Assembly: GCA_018668695.1 (NCBI GenBank)
Contig: JABJBS010000073.1
Location: forward strand, 1 to 32,388
Source: Deltaproteobacteria bacterium
GTDB lineage: Bacteria; Myxococcota; XYA12-FULL-58-9; JABJBS01
DNA: 32,388 nucleotides
Direction of reading: 5' to 3'
Below the pieces are notes generated by a model. The model saw nothing but the letters and a program-made list of their open reading frames with translations. It ran no database searches and was not told the DNA's origin. Both the position numbers and the translations under genes were made by a program. Shown here piece by piece: positions 12,350 through 23,950 of this stretch. Every line of letters starts with the position of its first letter. Position 1 is the first letter of the stretch.

Positions 12350-15300
12350 TTACTGCGAAACGACATCTGCCGCTGAGCGCGGTACAAGCTTGTAATTACT
12401 ATAGGAATAAAAAAGAGGTGCAGTGATCTGGTAGGTCGAGCCGACAGCCTGAATGCTGTAATCAAAACCCAAATCGTCAACTCTCAATGAGCCGGTTCCG
12501 TCATCAATAGACCACTCGCCGTAGCCTAGGTCAGATTCATCACAACTACCGACGACTTGAACCAATACCCCCACATATTCAGGGGATAATACAGCTCCAG
12601 TACCAAGCGTAAGAGCGGCCGGCAATCCATTGTTGGAGCTGTTTATTTGCACCGACACGGCCTCAACTCTTAGCAGTCCGTTGCTATCTGCTACACTGCC
12701 TTCAACCGTAACCTGGTCACCCACGGATACAGCGTCACTGCCTTGAATCCAAAGTCCTGTGGAAGCGCCCGTACCGTCGCTGATTGAGAACCGGTCGGTA
12801 CTACCAGAATAAACACCCGTGACGACTCCTTGAGTAGATACAATCTGCCCCACAACATCCGTGGTGTTAATTTCGTATACCGTATAGCTGCTTACGGTTG
12901 CCTCTTCGGAATTCGCTGCGCCCGGTGTTCCAAGCTCAATCGTACTTGCCTGCCAGTTCGCCGATAAAGCGTTATCTGCAGTCACATCCTTGAGTTCCAA
13001 AGAAGCACCTGCTCCATCTGCGGCAGCCGGCCAGCCGTTACCGTCATCGTAGGTGACGGTATCAATCACCACGCCATTGGGGTCGACCAAGGTCACCTCT
13101 TCACCGCTGTTGCCGAGACCTCCACTGGTCCACTCAACCACTGTGGCGCTCAACGAAGAATAACTGCTCTGATTCACAGTCACCACAAGGTATGTACCCG
13201 CTTCAAAGGTTACCGACCCAAAGGTATGGGTGACTCCAGCACTGAATGAACAACCCTCAAGGTTGACGGTCTCACCCGCGTTGTAGAGTTCAAGAAACTC
13301 ATAGAGGTTGTCGTTGCCTTGAGACGTGGGTGAATTGTAGTACAACTCGTTGATCACAATATTATAAGAGGCAGTCTCGGTGACACAGCTTCCTTGCTGG
13401 CAGACCTGCGAGGTTAACGAGCAATCCGTATCGGTTGAGGCATAACTACAAACGCCCTCACTGCACACCCCGGTTTCAAACACAGTTGCTACATCGCCCG
13501 TGCAGTAATCAGCGGGAACCTCATCGCATGTGACAGCCGCACAAGGGTCTGCATTGTCCACGCATTCGCCATCTGTACAAGTTGCTTCGTCGCCGCAGTC
13601 GGTTTCACTGTTTTCATAGGCGCACACTCCGCCATCACAAGTTCCGGCCGCGGCGTAAGACACCACGGTGTTACCGTCACATGTTGCTGCCGGCGGCTCC
13701 TCGCAAGTCACGCCATCACATGGGTCAACAACTTGGCAAATCGCGTTTTCAGCGCCCGGCGTCCCCTGGTTTCCATTGCTGTCATAAGAGCCCATACCTT
13801 CACACCATAGACTACTGTCGGCGTTGTCGGCGGCGTAGCTTCCGCCACCAAGACTTACCGAAGCTCCTGATGGATCGGGAAAACAGCTCGAACAATCGTC
13901 ATAGGCAATAGAATCAATAACCACAGAATCATAAGTCAAAATGATTTCATCGTCGCCATTGGCAAGTAAGAAAGTCCCGCTTTCGCTCCAGTCGTAATCT
14001 GGTCCACCCGGTATCGCATCCGCACTCTGACCAAACACATAATGGTCAAAAGCAGAAATAATAGTGCCGTCTAGGACAGTAAAAGAATCGCTGCCCGCAT
14101 CACTAACGACCATTCCGCCCACATAAAGGTCTGTACCGAGCGTGTTATACACCTCAAACCACTCGTAATTGGTATCGGTTGAGGCAGGATTGGCCAGATA
14201 CTCTGTAATCACTAAATCAGATGCACTGGCTACCACATAGCAAACACCGCCATGACACTCTTGGTCACCACAATCGGTCACTGTCTCGACCGCAGAAAAA
14301 TCACATCCTTCAGCACCCGTGCACACGCCGTCGCCGGAATAACTCACCACACTGTTGCCGTCGCAAATCGAAATTGGCTGTGTACAGTCAAAAGCGTCAC
14401 ATGGGTCAGCCACGCAAGATGCCCCGGTTTCTGTTGCAACGCACTCAAGGTTCGAACAGTCAGCGGCACTGGACTCATAGAAACAAGCCCCATCGGTGCA
14501 GGTTCCCGTGGCTTGATAGGTAAGTACACTGTTTCCATCACAAATGCTGACTGGCGGTTCATCGCATGAAAGCACGCTGCATGGGTCAACCAGCTCAACA
14601 TCACCTTCGCCGCGAAGAGCAATCTTGAAATTGCTGAATGAGTAATCCAACGGGCCACGAACGGTATAGGCGATGCCCTCAATGGGCGTCTCATAAACAT
14701 AGCCAAGGTCATCTACTCTGAGCATACCGGAACCATCGTCCACGCCCCATTCGCCGTAACCTAGGTCAGCCTGCGTACAGGTTGCAGTCACTTCGATTAA
14801 TACCGCTTCCCAATCATCGCTTGCGGCTTCTAGCGTCGTGAGCGGCTCTGCATAAGGCAGTATGCCCTCCGGCGAAACAACTTCGACTGCCGTTGCCCAA
14901 ACCATGAGTCGGCCGCCATCATCCACCACATGCCCCGTGACTTCGACATCTTCGCCATAAGCAGCACCCACACCTTCAACCCAAAGTGCTGAATACGCGC
15001 CATTGCCATCTTGAATCGTAAACCGGTTCATATCGGGAAAAGCACCCGTTACTACGCCGCCCGTGATGACATATTCACCCACAAAGTCGTTAATTCGAAT
15101 ATCACCCACGGATGCCGACATGGTCGCAGGCTCTGAGGAGTTGGCCTCACCTGGGGTACCCCCTACGATAAAGCTTGGTCGCCAGCTCACTGCTAGATTG
15201 TTGTCTAGGTCGTTATTTATCAGCTCGAGCGAGTAACCGTCGCCGTTAGCAAGCGGGCTCCATTCACCGCTGTTTTCGTAGGTGACGGTATCCACTTCTT

Positions 15301-16237
15301 CGCCATCTGCGCCGAGTAAAGTAATCGTCTCGCCGCTGTTGCCTAAAGATCCGCCAGTCCATGCCACAACATTTTCACCCTGATAAGAGGCCGCATTGGC
15401 TGCCACAACAAGGTAAGCACCGCCTGCTAATGTATAATCTTCGAAGGTGTGAGTTACACCGGAGCTGAATGTGTAGCCGGCCAAGTTGACAGATAAACCT
15501 GGGTTGTAAATTTCTAGAAATTCAAAATCGGCATCGTCACCCTGGGCAGTCGATGGATTGTAGTGAATCTCTGTAATAACCAAACCAGAATCAGTCGGGG
15601 CAAAACAGCTTCCCTCGGAGCAAACCTCATCTTCGCCGCATTCCGTGAGGGTCGACTCGTAAAAACACTCCCCAAAATCACACTCCCCAGCTTCCGAATA
15701 AGTAACGACAGCATTTCCATCACAGGTCGGCCCTGGCGGCGTCTCACACTCCATTTCGTCACAAGGATCTTCAACAGGAATACAGGCACCATCGACGCAT
15801 TCTTCACGCTCCATACAGTCTACGTTCGTTGTCTCATATTGGCACACACCGCCCACACACTGGCCAACCTCAGCGTAGGTCACGCCTGTGTACGAGTTAA
15901 TGCAGGTTGCATCCGGGGGTGAATCACAAACCACACCATCACACGGGTCTTCTATTTCGTTCGGTACGCAAGCACCATCGACGCATTGCGCATCTTGAGC
16001 CACGCAATTGGTCACTGTCTGTTCGTAAGCACATTCGCCGGAATCATCACAGCTACCGGTGTCAGCATAAGCCACCAGTGTCTGTCCCTGACAAAGAGCG
16101 GCAGGTGGCGCAACACATTCTTCAGAATCACACGTCTGACCCGGACTGGTTTCAGAACCACAACCCATTAAAAGTAAGGCCCAAAGCGCGACGCTCAGAA
16201 AGTTCTTTAACGCGCTCGAATTGACTAAATGATTCAT
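12350..16237 (-). CDS. Giant secreted lipoprotein: Cys repeats, lamin-tail and OB-like domains
   Basis: A 1295-residue surface protein. The signal peptide ends in lipobox LLMGC (Cys26). Seven Cys-rich repeats of about 56 residues, most starting DPCxxxxC, lie at about 36-92, 97-152, 157-212, 551-609, 611-667, 838-893 and 897-952. Between them are three lamin-tail-domain-like segments (about 217-365 LVITEIHYNPS, 673-833 LVITEYLANP, 959-1109 IVINELYYNSP) and two OB-like beta domains (about 370-550 and 1115-1295). The first and third lamin-tail units, each with its OB domain, are clear duplicates: LGYGEW is followed by an aspartate-rich DDG.G.LRVDDLG segment in both. Bacterial lamin-tail and OB modules occur in secreted nucleases and adhesins, but no nuclease domain is seen here. 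The start has a GGGGGAACAAA ribosome site. It is probably an outer-surface adhesive or scaffolding protein; function is unproven. Confidence 0.9.
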   Translation of the reverse strand: MNHLVNSSALKNFLSVALWALLLMGCGSETSPGQTCDSEECVAPPAALCQGQTLVAYADTGSCDDSGECAYEQTVTNCVAQDAQCVDGACVPNEIEDPCDGVVCDSPPDATCINSYTGVTYAEVGQCVGGVCQYETTNVDCMEREECVDGACIPVEDPCDEMECETPPGPTCDGNAVVTYSEAGECDFGECFYESTLTECGEDEVCSEGSCFAPTDSGLVITEIHYNPSTAQGDDADFEFLEIYNPGLSVNLAGYTFSSGVTHTFEDYTLAGGAYLVVAANAASYQGENVVAWTGGSLGNSGETITLLGADGEEVDTVTYENSGEWSPLANGDGYSLELINNDLDNNLAVSWRPSFIVGGTPGEANSSEPATMSASVGDIRINDFVGEYVITGGVVTGAFPDMNRFTIQDGNGAYSALWVEGVGAAYGEDVEVTGHVVDDGGRLMVWATAVEVVSPEGILPYAEPLTTLEAASDDWEAVLIEVTATCTQADLGYGEWGVDDGSGMLRVDDLGYVYETPIEGIAYTVRGPLDYSFSNFKIALRGEGDVELVDPCSVLSCDEPPVSICDGNSVLTYQATGTCTDGACFYESSAADCSNLECVATETGASCVADPCDAFDCTQPISICDGNSVVSYSGDGVCTGAEGCDFSAVETVTDCGDQECHGGVCYVVASASDLVITEYLANPASTDTNYEWFEVYNTLGTDLYVGGMVVSDAGSDSFTVLDGTIISAFDHYVFGQSADAIPGGPDYDWSESGTFLLANGDDEIILTYDSVVIDSIAYDDCSSCFPDPSGASVSLGGGSYAADNADSSLWCEGMGSYDSNGNQGTPGAENAICQVVDPCDGVTCEEPPAATCDGNTVVSYAAAGTCDGGVCAYENSETDCGDEATCTDGECVDNADPCAAVTCDEVPADYCTGDVATVFETGVCSEGVCSYASTDTDCSLTSQVCQQGSCVTETASYNIVINELYYNSPTSQGNDNLYEFLELYNAGETVNLEGCSFSAGVTHTFGSVTFEAGTYLVVTVNQSSYSSLSATVVEWTSGGLGNSGEEVTLVDPNGVVIDTVTYDDGNGWPAAADGAGASLELKDVTADNALSANWQASTIELGTPGAANSEEATVSSYTVYEINTTDVVGQIVSTQGVVTGVYSGSTDRFSISDGTGASTGLWIQGSDAVSVGDQVTVEGSVADSNGLLRVEAVSVQINSSNNGLPAALTLGTGAVLSPEYVGVLVQVVGSCDESDLGYGEWSIDDGTGSLRVDDLGFDYSIQAVGSTYQITAPLFYSYSNYKLVPRSAADVVSQ

Positions 16238-18462: not shown

Positions 18463-19029
18463 TTAGGTTTTCTCTAATAATTCCTTGGCCTTCTTGAGAG
18501 CCTGGGGCAATTCCCGCCCCCAAAAGAACGATGCCATGTGCAGGATACTGCCATGAAACCACCATTGCGTATTGGGAGATTGTACCTGCCAGGAAACAGT
18601 GGTCGTCCCTACTTCAACTTCCTTAAGCCCGATTCCATGAATGAAGATAACTCCATCAAGCCGTTCTTGATACATAAGAAAATCAGGTTGACGATGGTCC
18701 ACCATAAGCAGTGAAGCAACACCGAAACGGTTGAGTCCAGGTAAACCCAATAACCGGCTCACCCCTTCGGAGAGATTTGTCGCTTGACGGCTCGCATCAG
18801 TATCGGCCTCTATTTCGCCTTCTCCCGAGGGCTCTACATCGTTGATACTTAAGCCCGACAAGCTCTCGTAAACATCTTTGAGCGACCGATCGACATCGAT
18901 AGATGCTTCACCAAGGACGTGCGTCTCGCCAAGTCTATCGTAACGAGTCATGTCGAGAACGTAGAGCACCCAAAAGGTGATCCCGAGGGCTAAACCAACA
19001 AAGAATATACTCTTGAGCAAGTTTCTCAT
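18463..19029 (-). CDS. Membrane-anchored protein of unknown function (possible SRPBCC-like fold)
   Basis: With the start at 19029 the protein has 188 residues; an in-frame ATG at 19047 would add six. Residues about 4-25 form one transmembrane helix or uncleaved signal (IFFVGLALGITFWVLYVL). The remaining ~160 residues are predicted extracytoplasmic. The pattern ASIDVDRSLKDVYESLSGL early on, beta-rich segments such as TTTVSWQVQ in the middle, and a long C-terminal helix (RELPQALKKAKELLEK) recall START/SRPBCC lipid-binding folds, but this is a weak structural guess. It is divergent from the cytochrome gene, with only about 70 bases between their starts. No family is firmly recognised. Confidence 0.7.
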   Translation of the reverse strand: MRNLLKSIFFVGLALGITFWVLYVLDMTRYDRLGETHVLGEASIDVDRSLKDVYESLSGLSINDVEPSGEGEIEADTDASRQATNLSEGVSRLLGLPGLNRFGVASLLMVDHRQPDFLMYQERLDGVIFIHGIGLKEVEVGTTTVSWQVQSPNTQWWFHGSILHMASFFWGRELPQALKKAKELLEKT

Positions 19030-19101
19030 AGCTCCGAGACTACCCAAAAACGCAGGTGGATAAAATAGGTCTATCAGAGAGTATTCCTTCCATTGGAATC
19101 A

Positions 19102-21276
19102 ATGAGAATCCGGGCCATACTAAGAGTTATGACAAATACAACGCTTCGGGCTCACGTTGTTATGCTGATGACTTGCCTAACCAGCTTAGGATGCGAACAA
19201 ATTGACTCGCCCATCGATCAAGAGGTGGTCAATGTTCCGGCCAAACTGCCCAAGCAGCCAGGCCCATACAGTCCGGCTATGGCTCAAATCGCTCCCAACG
19301 GCCCCTACAACCTCGCGGTGCATAGTGAGGTAAAGCTATGTGCATCGTGTCACACACAACATCATGAACAATGGCGTGAAAGTACTCATGGGCTCTCGTC
19401 ATTTAATAACCCCTTCTATCAAGTTGCATTTGATTCTTACGTTGAACAAGTTGGTCTTGATAAGGGAGCTTTCTGCGGTGGGTGCCACGACCCCACACTC
19501 GTATTTACCGGCGCAATCGCAGAACCCATCAAGCCTGAACACGCCTCCAACTACCTTGGAATAACCTGTAACAGCTGTCATGGCATCAGTGCCGCTACTA
19601 CCGATGGCGTTGCCAGTTACACCCTCGACACCAGCCCTATCCCCATCCCCAATGAAACTGACCCGGCATCTTTGCATGCCCACATCAGGCGAGTCTCTAA
19701 GCCAATACTCAAAGAGGACACCTTATGCATCAGTTGCCACAAAGGGTTTCTGTCTCAAGCCTCAGGGCATAAAGCCTTTTTACCTGCACTCGATGAGTTC
19801 GGCCCTTGGCGACGTTCAGGGTTTGCGAATACCTCAACAGCGTCACGGATCGTGACGCCGCGTGTGAAGCAAGGGTGCAAAGATTGCCACATGCCTGAAT
19901 CGATGAATGAAGGCGTTGCCCACTCCCACAGATTTCCCGGTGGCCATACAACTCTTGCCTATGCGTCGGGCTCCGGCAAACAGCTAGACGCAGTTAAAAA
20001 GATAATGGCAAACCGAATTGCCTTTGATATCCCGGCATGGCGTGAAGGCTCTCAAAGCTGGGTTGCAACCAATTCCGCTCAGACTCCCAAGACCTCAAGC
20101 ATCCAGTTCGATGTCGTCATATCCAATACGAACATTGGACATCACTTTCCAGCCGGTGCCCGAGATCTACGTAATGTCTGGGTCGAACTCACATTGCTGG
20201 ATTCAGCCGGTAAGACCGTGGGTAACTCAGGACATCAATACACGCAGTCTGGTGAAGAGGAAGACGTTCATGTCCTTCAGGTTGGACTGGTCGATGAGAA
20301 CGGAGACTTGGTTAAAAAGCACGGGGTAGGACATTTCCGTACTCCCCTCTTCGATCAAACAGTCGCTCCGTCCGACTCACGGGCAGCTCGCTACCTATTC
20401 CAGCCAACCACTCAAATTGCGTGGCCTCTTCAGATTCAAGCCAGGCTTCTCCAAAAGCGCTTCAGCAAAACCTTCCTCGATGAAGCTTGTAAATCCTCAA
20501 AGACTCAGCGCGGAAAAGACTTTCAAAAGAACTCTCTTACTCATCACTCTGTCCCCATTGATGCCTGTAAACCTCAGCCTACAGTTGTGATGGCCACATC
20601 TACATCGTGGGTCGGCAAGGTTTCTCAATCCGACACACCCGCTTGGTTACGTTGGTATCGCCATGGCATAGCACTTAGGCACGACCTTCAAGAGCGGCTC
20701 AACGTTGCGGCACAGAGCTTACAAAATGCACTCTCACAACTTCCCGCCAATATTCAGGGTCATCGCCGAGCCATGATTCACGCAAGCTTAGCGGATATTT
20801 TTGTTCAACAGTCCAAACTCGCCGAAGCAAACCAACATCTTGATATTGCTGAGAAAATCACTCCGAACCAGCCGGTGATTGCCAAGCTTAGAGGTCAAGG
20901 ACTTCGAAAGATCTGGAAACTTAAAGAAGCAGTACCTCATTTTAGAAAAGCTGCAGCACTCGCCCCAAACGATGAAGCCAGGTGGCGGGACTTGGCAGCA
21001 GCTTTGGGTTCAACAGGTCAACACAATCAAGCATTTAAGGCTGCACAAAAAGGTCTTGATGTTGAGTCGCGTGACGCACACCTTTTGCGTCTGCAAATGT
21101 TAGCCATCGAAAAATCGGGTCAACCTCACTCCAAAGAGGCCCGGCAATCCTTTCTTGACTTCAAACATGACGAGGCTGCTGCAAAATTAAAAGCTCGCTG
21201 CAGTCAGCAATCAGCGGAGTGTCGCAAAGCGCGACTACCTCTCCGTATTTACAGGATAAAATCGGAAATTAATTAA
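19102..21276 (+). CDS. Multiheme cytochrome c / TPR lipoprotein
   Basis: A 724-residue envelope protein. The N-terminal signal ends in lipobox LTSLGC, so it is a lipoprotein; an ATG at 19129 is an alternative start giving a shorter signal. Five CxxCH heme-binding motifs (CASCH, CGGCH, CNSCH, CISCH, CKDCH) fall in about the first 265 residues, in a cytochrome c554-like arrangement with extra distal histidines (HTQHHEQW, THG, SGHK). A beta domain with HHFPAGARDLRNVWVELTL follows, then a C-terminal TPR region (about residues 550-690). It should carry electrons on the periplasmic or outer surface; the TPR part suggests protein docking. No partner oxidoreductase is adjacent. The AT-rich sequence after the stop leads to the large RNA locus. 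Confidence 0.9.
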   Translation: MRIRAILRVMTNTTLRAHVVMLMTCLTSLGCEQIDSPIDQEVVNVPAKLPKQPGPYSPAMAQIAPNGPYNLAVHSEVKLCASCHTQHHEQWRESTHGLSSFNNPFYQVAFDSYVEQVGLDKGAFCGGCHDPTLVFTGAIAEPIKPEHASNYLGITCNSCHGISAATTDGVASYTLDTSPIPIPNETDPASLHAHIRRVSKPILKEDTLCISCHKGFLSQASGHKAFLPALDEFGPWRRSGFANTSTASRIVTPRVKQGCKDCHMPESMNEGVAHSHRFPGGHTTLAYASGSGKQLDAVKKIMANRIAFDIPAWREGSQSWVATNSAQTPKTSSIQFDVVISNTNIGHHFPAGARDLRNVWVELTLLDSAGKTVGNSGHQYTQSGEEEDVHVLQVGLVDENGDLVKKHGVGHFRTPLFDQTVAPSDSRAARYLFQPTTQIAWPLQIQARLLQKRFSKTFLDEACKSSKTQRGKDFQKNSLTHHSVPIDACKPQPTVVMATSTSWVGKVSQSDTPAWLRWYRHGIALRHDLQERLNVAAQSLQNALSQLPANIQGHRRAMIHASLADIFVQQSKLAEANQHLDIAEKITPNQPVIAKLRGQGLRKIWKLKEAVPHFRKAAALAPNDEARWRDLAAALGSTGQHNQAFKAAQKGLDVESRDAHLLRLQMLAIEKSGQPHSKEARQSFLDFKHDEAAAKLKARCSQQSAECRKARLPLRIYRIKSEIN

Positions 21277-21381
21277 TCACGAAATTAATAATTAAAGTTA
21301 TCGCTTACCCCGCCGATGTACGTGTGACTGCGAGAGCTGATCTTTTTATCGATTTTCCTAGCTCAAAAATTCACCATATCA

Positions 21382-21411
21382 TTGACCAACCTGATTAGAG
21401 ACCGCTAACAT
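21382..21411 (+). promoter_or_regulatory. Predicted sigma-70 promoter of the large structured RNA
   Basis: TTGACC (21382-21387) matches the -35 box at five of six positions, and TAACAT (21406-21411) fits a -10 box after an 18-base spacer. This would start transcription near 21418, just before the first three-way-junction stem of the RNA. It is the best such pair in the 21277-21420 gap. Confidence 0.55.
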
Positions 21412-21417
21412 TGTAAT

Positions 21418-22567
21418 GTAAGGTGTATTGCTTGGGGAGTTTATACATTAAACAATAAGGTGCTTTGCGCCGTCCCAAGTTCCTCAAGCACAAGCCATAC
21501 GAATAAGGTGTACGAGCAATTAAGTTCGCACCAAATATCAGCGAATTAACTCCTAGATGCTCTGGCCAGCGATAGGGATGTGTTCGTGGAGGAACGTGGA
21601 TGATTACTGAGCCGTTTCCATAACGTAAATTCGACGAATTAAAGACAACTCGTGGACACGTGTGTCCAAGGGAGCTGTGTAGCGTCTCACCAAAAGTTAC
21701 GTACGGGTTTGGAATGCCGGTTGTAACTTAAAGGGATTGGTGCGTCCTTTCTGCTCCTGCGATCGATTGTCGCAATTTGGGAAATAGTGGTAGCTGTCGG
21801 TTTGCTTGGGTGGCAGATCGTTAGCGCAACGCTATGCATGAGTGTTGGTGAGCTGTGGAAAGCCCACCGGGTAAATTATGTGACGTTGTGAAACGTCGCA
21901 AAGGTCAGCTCGACTTCCGACCCTGAATCGGAACACAAGAAGAGCCTGACTCCTGGATACTCAGGGGGTGCCTGTCATACCCAGGCACTCCCAACCATCT
22001 TGCGAGACCGGTGGCTACTCAGCACACCTCTATTCACCTGTGTCATGTTCAAACATGTCTCCCCGCAGTTACGCGCGTGTATCGCGCATGGGAAATGTAA
22101 ATGGGTGTTCGAAAACATAATCATCAGCCAAGGGCAATTCACAAGGCCGCTGCGCCTATGAACCTTTGTCCATGGTCTCTTGGTGACGAAAATCTTGTCT
22201 ACTGGATTCCGCCAGAGCTTCTACGGGCTCATTCTTCGGGAGGAGCCACGCTAGATAGGCTCCCGGCAAACCCGGGTGCCCGAAGGATTACTCTCAGGTC
22301 TCCAGATCAGGACAGAGCCTCTTACAAAGGAGACTGCAAATACTAGACTGCCTAGCCAGGCAACGGAGCCACCGATTTACTCGGCGGTGGGCGGTGGCTC
22401 CAGTGATAACCGTGCGCAGGGCCCAATAACCTGTGGCACGGTAGACGGTGACTGGCTCTTGTTTCATGACAAGAGTCAGTCTCGTCTCAAGGCGAGAGAA
22501 ATTATTACCACCGTAAAAAAAAACGCCGCCTGATGCTTTTAAATGCATCAGGCGGCGTTTTGATTTT
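21418..22567 (+). ncRNA. Candidate large structured noncoding RNA (~1.15 kb), class not recognised
   Basis: No convincing protein gene lies between 21277 and 22590. The plus strand instead packs more than twenty stems. Examples: a three-way junction 21431-21436/21474-21479 enclosing GTTTA/TAAAC and GGTGC/GCGCC hairpins; nested CACCAA/TTGGTG (21688/21737) and AAGTTAC/GTAACTT (21694/21723); a 7-bp hairpin capped by a GTGA GNRA loop (21881-21898); 10 bp at 21965-21974/21982-21991; CTTCGGG/CCCGAAG (22234/22279) enclosing GGAGCC/GGCTCC; perfect 10 bp at 22365-22374/22392-22401; ACCGTGC/GCACGGT (22409/22436); and 12 bp with one G-U at 22450-22461/22470-22481. A promoter-like pair precedes it and a 17-bp terminator ends it. 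It shows no recognisable signature of RNase P, tmRNA, SRP RNA or an intron. The 5' end is approximate. Confidence 0.72.
22520..22567 (+). terminator. Very strong bidirectional intrinsic terminator
   Basis: AAAACGCCGCCTGATGC (22520-22536) pairs over 17 bases without mismatch with 22545-22561 around an 8-base loop. On the plus strand the stem runs into TTTTGATTTT and ends the structured RNA. On the minus strand it runs into nine T's, 30-odd bases past the esterase stop, and so also ends that gene. It serves both convergent transcripts. Confidence 0.92.
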
Positions 22568-22590
22568 AAGCTTTTAAGCTCTTACCTAAA

Positions 22591-23679
22591 TCAAGGATTC
22601 AAACGACAGATTGAATCTAGGCTCGATGGAAGACCATCAAGAAGGTAAGGTGAAGCCTTCCCTGCACGGTGTGCCTTGAAGAACTCCTTCACAATTGAGT
22701 TAGATAACTGTGGGTGGTTTGAGTGACCACCTGTGTGTGCACAATCGATGACGTTACGGTTGTGGTTAGGCAAGTGCGAGTGCGCGAAAGAAGCACTGTC
22801 TTCGAAACTAATGATGCGTCCGTTGTTGCCTACACCAGCAATCGAGAACTGCGGATCACCGTAGATATCGCCGGCGCCGCCATGAGACATCAGAATAGTT
22901 CCTTCGTGAGCAGGATTCAGCGCATCCCAACGGAAGTTAACCGTCAACATACCTGTATCAATTGCATCGACAGTGTCAGGGCTATTAAACCATGCACCAC
23001 TCATGATGTACGCAGCGCCAACCATCTCAGGATAACGGCTGTGCATCATCGCACTGATGATAGCTCCACCAGAGAATCCCATGTGGTAAATACGTCCAGA
23101 ATCGATTGTGTACTCTTCAGCAAGGCAGCCAACGACTGTTTCAAAGAGTGCTGCTTCAAGGTTATCGTCGCCATTTTCGCTCTCGAATGCATCCCATTCG
23201 ATACCAATCGTACCGGAACCATCGAGGCTATAAGGCTGCAGACGCATTCCTTGTGGAAAAATCATGATGTACGGGAAGTCCGCGTCACCATCAGGTGTTG
23301 GAGCGATAAAGTTTTGAAAGTTTGAAGCGGTATCACCCACTCCGTGCCATGCGAAGATGACGCTTACGGGTGTGTCGCTATCTACGTTCGGTAGGTGCGC
23401 GTAGAATTCACGTGCATCAGGACCTGCTTGCCAGCCATTGTTCAGGCCTTCTGCAACCATCTGACCATTACACTCGAAAGGGATTTCAGCGATAGCGTCG
23501 GTTGAGCCGTTAGCCGCTCCGTTGTCTCCAGAGACATTGTCTCCAGTAGTCGAATCCGCCCCATCGGTTCCGTCCATCGTTGTACCATCTTGGTTCCCAG
23601 CTTCAGTGGTTTCTCCACCACAAGCAGCCAAACCCAAAGATAAAAGGCCTATCAACAAGATATTCCAAGATTTCAACAT
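22591..23679 (-). CDS. PHB-depolymerase/feruloyl-esterase-like alpha/beta hydrolase lipoprotein
   Basis: A 362-residue secreted esterase. The start at 23679 is fixed by GAGGGAG upstream and by the lipoprotein signal with lipobox GLAAC (Cys20); a longer frame up to 23916 is not needed. A low-complexity Gly/Asp/Thr linker (about 21-65) separates the anchor from an alpha/beta-hydrolase domain of the CE1/PHB-depolymerase type: oxyanion region WHGVGDTASNF, nucleophile Ser203 in GFSGG, probable acid Asp271 in GAGDIYGD and His319 in HTGGH. Such enzymes cleave polyester or aromatic-acid ester bonds. Scattered Cys residues may form disulfides. It is monocistronic, with its own promoter and the shared terminator at 22520-22567. 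The substrate is uncertain. Confidence 0.87.
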   Translation of the reverse strand: MLKSWNILLIGLLSLGLAACGGETTEAGNQDGTTMDGTDGADSTTGDNVSGDNGAANGSTDAIAEIPFECNGQMVAEGLNNGWQAGPDAREFYAHLPNVDSDTPVSVIFAWHGVGDTASNFQNFIAPTPDGDADFPYIMIFPQGMRLQPYSLDGSGTIGIEWDAFESENGDDNLEAALFETVVGCLAEEYTIDSGRIYHMGFSGGAIISAMMHSRYPEMVGAAYIMSGAWFNSPDTVDAIDTGMLTVNFRWDALNPAHEGTILMSHGGAGDIYGDPQFSIAGVGNNGRIISFEDSASFAHSHLPNHNRNVIDCAHTGGHSNHPQLSNSIVKEFFKAHRAGKASPYLLDGLPSSLDSICRLNP

Positions 23680-23735
23680 GTGCGCGCTCCCTCGACATGA
23701 GTGTATAGTGTAGGTGTCGGTCATCGAATGTGGGA

Positions 23736-23765
23736 TGCATAGCGATGCGGTACGCCAACTGTCAA
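23736..23765 (-). promoter_or_regulatory. Predicted sigma-70 promoter of the esterase gene
   Basis: Read on the minus strand, a perfect TTGACA (bases 23765-23760) is followed after 18 bases by TATGCA (23741-23736). This places the transcript start about 50 bases upstream of the ribosome site at the 23679 start codon. The rest of 23680-23950 holds no gene; it is the divergent control region with the amine oxidase. Confidence 0.6.
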
Positions 23766-23950
23766 ACCAAAAGCCCATCACGGGGATCACCGACCAACAA
23801 ATATTTACATTTGAAGCCTGTTTTGGCCCTATTGGTCCCCCCCAAATAGACCAATCGCTTTTTGAGACTGAATGATGAGCCAGCCACTTATCTTTATAAC
23901 TTGCCCCGATTCTCAATCAGCTCTAAATTTTGAGACGTTAGGAAACCAGA

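Follow-up and report, generated by a model that had tools for sequence, protein, structure and literature searches.

The closest described systems to the locus reported here are the large bacterial RNAs OLE, GOLLD and ROOL, all of which have Rfam profiles (PMC12286853). OLE dimerises; GOLLD RNAs, many of which exceed 800 nt, are found in phages and prophages, often near tRNAs; ROOL RNAs, among them the 659-nt env-120, contain pseudoknots, occur in phage and tRNA-island contexts and form an RNA-only cage (PMC12286853). The stretch of DNA analysed (32,388 nt, hereafter the window) is contig C73 of a draft genome of 5.87 Mb in 424 contigs, 98.6% complete and apparently a MAG. GOLLD, a large noncoding RNA of bacteria and phages, is rich in stems and multi-way junctions (PMC12286853); the locus resembles it in these respects, here in the form of predicted structure, and differs from it in the lack of an Rfam match and in its ordinary metabolic neighbours. 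What it has in common with ROOL is a large, structured RNA for which no protein partner is known (PMC12286853), but no sequence or structure match to ROOL was found at the locus, and env-120 has only 659 nt. The likeness to OLE is that of a large free-standing bacterial RNA, whereas the locus matches no Rfam family. Moreover, the setting of GOLLD and ROOL was looked for and is absent: no tRNA occurs in the 32-kb window, no phage protein was recognised among the scanned neighbours, and blastn against phages and plasmids gave no match.

The region occupies the longest gap between credible genes (21277–22590, ~1.3 kb) in an otherwise gene-packed window, in agreement with what an earlier note on this DNA had reported. 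The features considered below are the following.

19093–21276, plus strand: cytochrome-c/TPR protein gene (727 aa; Pfam), the upstream neighbour, on the same strand as the RNA
21412–21540, plus strand: 5' structured block (z −4.14 on plus, −0.6 on minus; none of 100 shuffles as low)
21541–21780, plus strand: linker stretch without significant local structure (z −0.24)
21781–21995, plus strand: middle structured block (z −5.93 on plus, −3.28 on minus; none of 100 shuffles as low)
21996–22345, plus strand: second stretch at chance level (z −1.07 for 21996–22344)
22346–22515, plus strand: 3' structured block (z −7.68 on plus, −3.81 on minus; none of 100 shuffles as low on plus)
22520–22561, no strand assigned: 17-bp terminator hairpin (−33.5 kcal/mol; called on the minus strand only)
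22591–23916, minus strand: esterase-like alpha/beta hydrolase gene (441 aa; Pfam), the convergent downstream neighbour

Elsewhere in the window, a very large protein of 1295 aa with three lamin-tail (LTD) domain matches in Pfam is encoded at 12350–16237 on the minus strand, and a 194-aa ORF without Pfam match (18463–19047, minus strand), which could belong to an unknown gene family, lies divergently upstream of the cytochrome gene. Local GC skew is positive (0.05 to 0.07) over 21601–22800 and negative in nearly all of the surrounding window, which fits a G-rich plus-strand RNA.

Folding of the plus strand of 21412–22515 (1104 nt) gave −418.3 kcal/mol (z −5.5), lower than any of 60 shuffles that preserve dinucleotide content, for which the energy was −361.7 ± 10.2 kcal/mol. 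The folding-energy check that the earlier note had proposed thus came out in its favour, and 21 segments of the same length taken elsewhere in the window gave a mean z of 0.06 (sd 0.88, minimum −1.97). In agreement with the whole-region fold, a 120-nt scan gave z values of −3.3, −3.7 and −7.2 for plus-strand windows of the region, windows elsewhere averaging 0.09 on the plus and −0.10 on the minus strand. All three blocks score lower on the plus strand than on the minus strand, which points to selection on an RNA, where G-U pairs count, rather than to a DNA palindrome; two of them also reach significance on the minus strand (z −3.3 for 21781–21995 and −3.8 for 22346–22515). Unpaired bases showed no A-enrichment relative to shuffles, so that this mark of selected RNA is absent.

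A real structured plus-strand RNA signal, unclassified and orphan, is therefore present at this locus, on account of the folding statistics, the strand asymmetry, the lack of a coding signal and the lack of an Rfam match. The general mark of a structured noncoding RNA, a folding energy below that of dinucleotide-shuffled controls with preference for the plus strand, is found here. What the earlier note had described as a large structured noncoding RNA of unrecognised class holds to this extent and does not extend to a single 1.15-kb RNA: individually significant structure is limited to the three blocks (~515 nt), the intervening stretches, about half of the region, are at chance, and duplexes joining positions more than 300 nt apart are matched in strength in 20 of 60 shuffles, so that one folded 1.15-kb molecule is not established. 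For the same reason a single closed global architecture, obtained from a fold without span limit (5'–3' helix 21413–17/22504–08, long-range helices 21536–21566/22211–22257), was dropped. The picture that the models support is one of three robust domains, with the links between domains only predicted.

In the 5' block, a three-way junction is predicted, with an outer helix (21429–21438/21481–21490) enclosing hairpins 21439–21453 and 21459–21471, and followed by a further hairpin at 21507–21532; pair probabilities, computed without span limit, are 0.79–1.0. The junction strand CUUGGGGA can pair either with UCCUCAAG (within 21481–21490) or with CCCAAG (21474–21479). A junction had already been proposed at 21431–21479, and a junction is indeed predicted, although the CUUGGG/CCCAAG register on which that proposal was built comes out ~4.6 kcal/mol worse than the outer helix; on these modelled energies, a two-register switch at 21429–21490 is possible. 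The middle block is predicted to form an extended hairpin (21784–21835), a four-way junction closed by 21839–21846/21956–21963 and a perfect 11-bp hairpin (21964–21992), with pair probabilities mostly of 0.87–1.0 under a 160-nt span limit. Within the four-way junction lies the GNRA-capped hairpin seen by the earlier note, predicted at 21879–21900 with a GUGA loop and a pair probability of 0.97. In the 3' block, hairpins are predicted at 22349–22362, 22365–22401, 22409–22442, 22450–22481 and 22481–22496, with a possible closing helix 22445–22450/22509–22514. Both long helices previously pointed out there are recovered, namely 22365–22401 (10 uninterrupted pairs, a bulge, then 6; pair probability 1.0) and 22450–22481 (14 pairs; 0.99), and, together with hairpins 21964–21992 and 21879–21900, they are the strongest single elements of the region.

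The nested helices (21688–21742) and the second junction (22234–22285) of the earlier note are predicted as helices, but both fall in stretches at chance level. The second linker includes a cUUCGg hairpin (22232–22241, loop 22234–22239) and a hairpin at 22258–22280, and its sub-stretches have z values of −1.1 (21996–22200) and −1.3 (22201–22345). A separate point concerns hairpins 21847–21868 and 22010–22028, each of which is complementary to itself as well as to the other: folded alone they yield −10.6 and −8.7 kcal/mol, paired with each other −27.3 kcal/mol, and as self-pairs −22.8 and −20.2 kcal/mol, respectively.

As for the limits of the region, the AT-rich stretch 21282–21411 shows chance-level structure (z 0.02), for which reason the 5' limit was set at 21412. 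A promoter-like pair had been placed just upstream, at 21382–21411; it scores 9/12, and one such site was found versus 1.4 expected, so it is at chance level and this part of the earlier description falls. At the 3' side, the terminator hairpin just past 22515 is real, but the call was made for the minus strand alone, on which nine consecutive T follow from the end of the stem and the U-tract is better (esterase side); the plus-strand tail is TTTTGATTTT. Judging from its sequence, the hairpin would plausibly serve both convergent transcripts. A sequence with weak similarity to it (78% over 49 nt) lies in the same genome at C276:4527–4575.

Search for relatives did not retrieve any convincing result. 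The region is single-copy in its own genome by blastn, and no match was found in 195 genomes of the phylum (E ≤ 0.001), nor any convincing relative in its own class. Covariance models were built for 22345–22515 (R1), 21836–21994 (R2) and 21418–21535 (R3), each from one sequence and thus weak; run over 189 genomes of the phylum they recovered only the own copy, and so did R1 over the class. Strict filters were applied to the large genome sets and looser ones to the R1 search of the class. An R1 match in another genome (G007; 17 bits, E 0.24) is at noise level. Relatives of the neighbouring esterase and of an amine oxidase are only 33–53% identical in other genomes, the closest amine oxidases (46–53% aa identity) coming from four genomes labelled Myxococcales, Polyangia or Deltaproteobacteria, which suggests a Myxococcota lineage for the source genome. 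Blastn of the region against these four genomes and the loci of neighbour-gene relatives gave no convincing match, and R1 and R2 found nothing in those loci. Seven exact-pattern scans of viral contigs returned one 18-mer, attributed to chance because its surroundings do not align. In the genome set searched, the family is represented by the source genome only and the class by eight genomes; the lack of relatives is partly a lack of sampling.

The reading we prefer is a stand-alone plus-strand noncoding RNA gene, running from ~21412 to the bidirectional terminator at 22520–22561 and made of three stable domains with flexible linkers, to which we assign about an even chance. It is supported by its boundaries, with chance-level structure upstream of 21412 and the terminator hairpin just past 22515. 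Counting against it are the absence of any homologue and hence of any sign of conservation, the promoter at chance, the linkers and long-range pairing at chance, and the minus-strand significance of two blocks.

The next-best reading after a trans-acting structural RNA is a structured 3' UTR of the cytochrome/TPR mRNA, in which read-through from 19093–21276 would reach the shared terminator and the blocks would protect the mRNA or yield 3'-UTR-derived sRNAs. Like bacterial structured 3' UTRs and the sRNAs derived from them, the region lies downstream of a same-strand gene, whose end is only 136 nt from the first block, and it ends at a terminator common with a convergent gene. The terminator scan found no plus-strand terminator between 21276 and 22515, that is, none after the cytochrome gene, which keeps this reading alive, and the promoter is only at chance level. 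At 1.2 kb, on the other hand, a structured 3' UTR would be much longer than bacterial ones usually are, and the 130 nt preceding the region lack structure and are AT-rich, like a promoter region. On balance we regard the 3' UTR as an unlikely but serious candidate.

Less probable still, and in our opinion rather doubtful, are two or three separate shorter RNAs, for example a ~220-nt sRNA (22346–22561) with independent elements at 21412–21540 and 21781–21995. The restriction of significance to three blocks with chance-level stretches between them, and the lack of significant long-range pairing, speak for such a division, but the scan found no internal promoter or plus-strand terminator that would separate the blocks.

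That the region is the remnant of a mobile element or a decayed protein gene, with incidental folding, is largely refuted and very improbable. The best weak DNA match of the region (42 bp, 84%) falls inside a coding sequence of genome G003, which we take to be DUF1343-like, and a 'WIPPEL' stretch is common to the region and a coding end in locus L033. Both would suggest a gene remnant, but they are short and weak, lie in coding sequences and fall in different, unrelated frames of the window, and are thus taken as coincidences; tblastn of the G003 protein against the region gave only noise. Codon scores of the gap are at wrong-frame level in all six frames, Pfam found no family in six-frame translations of the region even at E ≤ 1 beyond one noise match at 0.22, and the region's small ORFs had no match in PHROG. 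In addition, protein-gene segments of the window have z values near 0, and the region is single-copy, with flanking direct repeats absent. The decayed gene and the intron that the earlier note had named as its own possible refutations were looked for and not found. In particular, Rfam intron models gave no match over 21200–22700 at E ≤ 10, no reverse transcriptase or other protein family appears in six frames, and the flanking genes, being oppositely oriented, do not form one interrupted gene. DnaA boxes and a hammerhead core motif, searched with a replication origin or a ribozyme in view, were not found either, and an integron attC site was considered and set aside by eye only.

Hardly credible at all is the idea that the locus belongs to one of the known large classes (OLE, GOLLD, ROOL, group II intron or RNase P) and is too divergent for the models to detect: large size, multi-way junctions and GNRA and UUCG loops would suggest one, but Rfam 15 (cmscan) gave no match at gathering over the whole window, none of these classes appeared at E ≤ 10, and neither tRNAs in the window nor recognised phage genes nearby were found. 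Over 21200–22700 at E ≤ 10 the only Rfam matches were low-scoring and mostly covered the terminator hairpin; the absence of OLE, GOLLD and ROOL signatures remarked on in the earlier note was borne out there by their covariance models. The RNase P model did not match the region either, and the genome's RNase P RNA was found elsewhere (C214:1514–1898, 307 bits), which indicates that the genome search detects real RNAs in this class.

Returning to the stand-alone noncoding RNA, the facing gene is convergent and no same-direction gene lies downstream of the region to be controlled, which makes cis-control unlikely and a trans-acting structural RNA the best guess. We infer transcription as one molecule from ~21412 to the terminator at 22520–22561, and action in trans rather than as a cis-regulator. 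The RNA would fold into three stable domains with flexible linkers between them and may serve as a scaffold or binding platform, either for a protein or for its own copies. Hairpins 21847–21868 and 22010–22028 might fold alone, pair mutually or each bind its counterpart in a second copy of the RNA; that these alternatives constitute a conformational switch or a dimer contact is speculation from energies alone, and the 5' junction, with its two registers, could, on the models, have the same role.

The locus illustrates a limit of comparative discovery, since structure is clear in one genome and no relative is found in ~190 genomes of the phylum. More tentatively, and as a possibility that we hold well below an even chance, the region might encode one multidomain noncoding RNA of 1.1 kb, which would surpass many GOLLD RNAs in size, be confined to a poorly sampled Myxococcota-like lineage and represent a new class of large ornate RNA that serves in structure or assembly. 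Few very large structured RNAs are known from bacteria, and the three examined by cryo-EM proved to form assemblies made of RNA only (PMC12286853); if true, another such class, this time outside phages, would make a strong target for structural studies.
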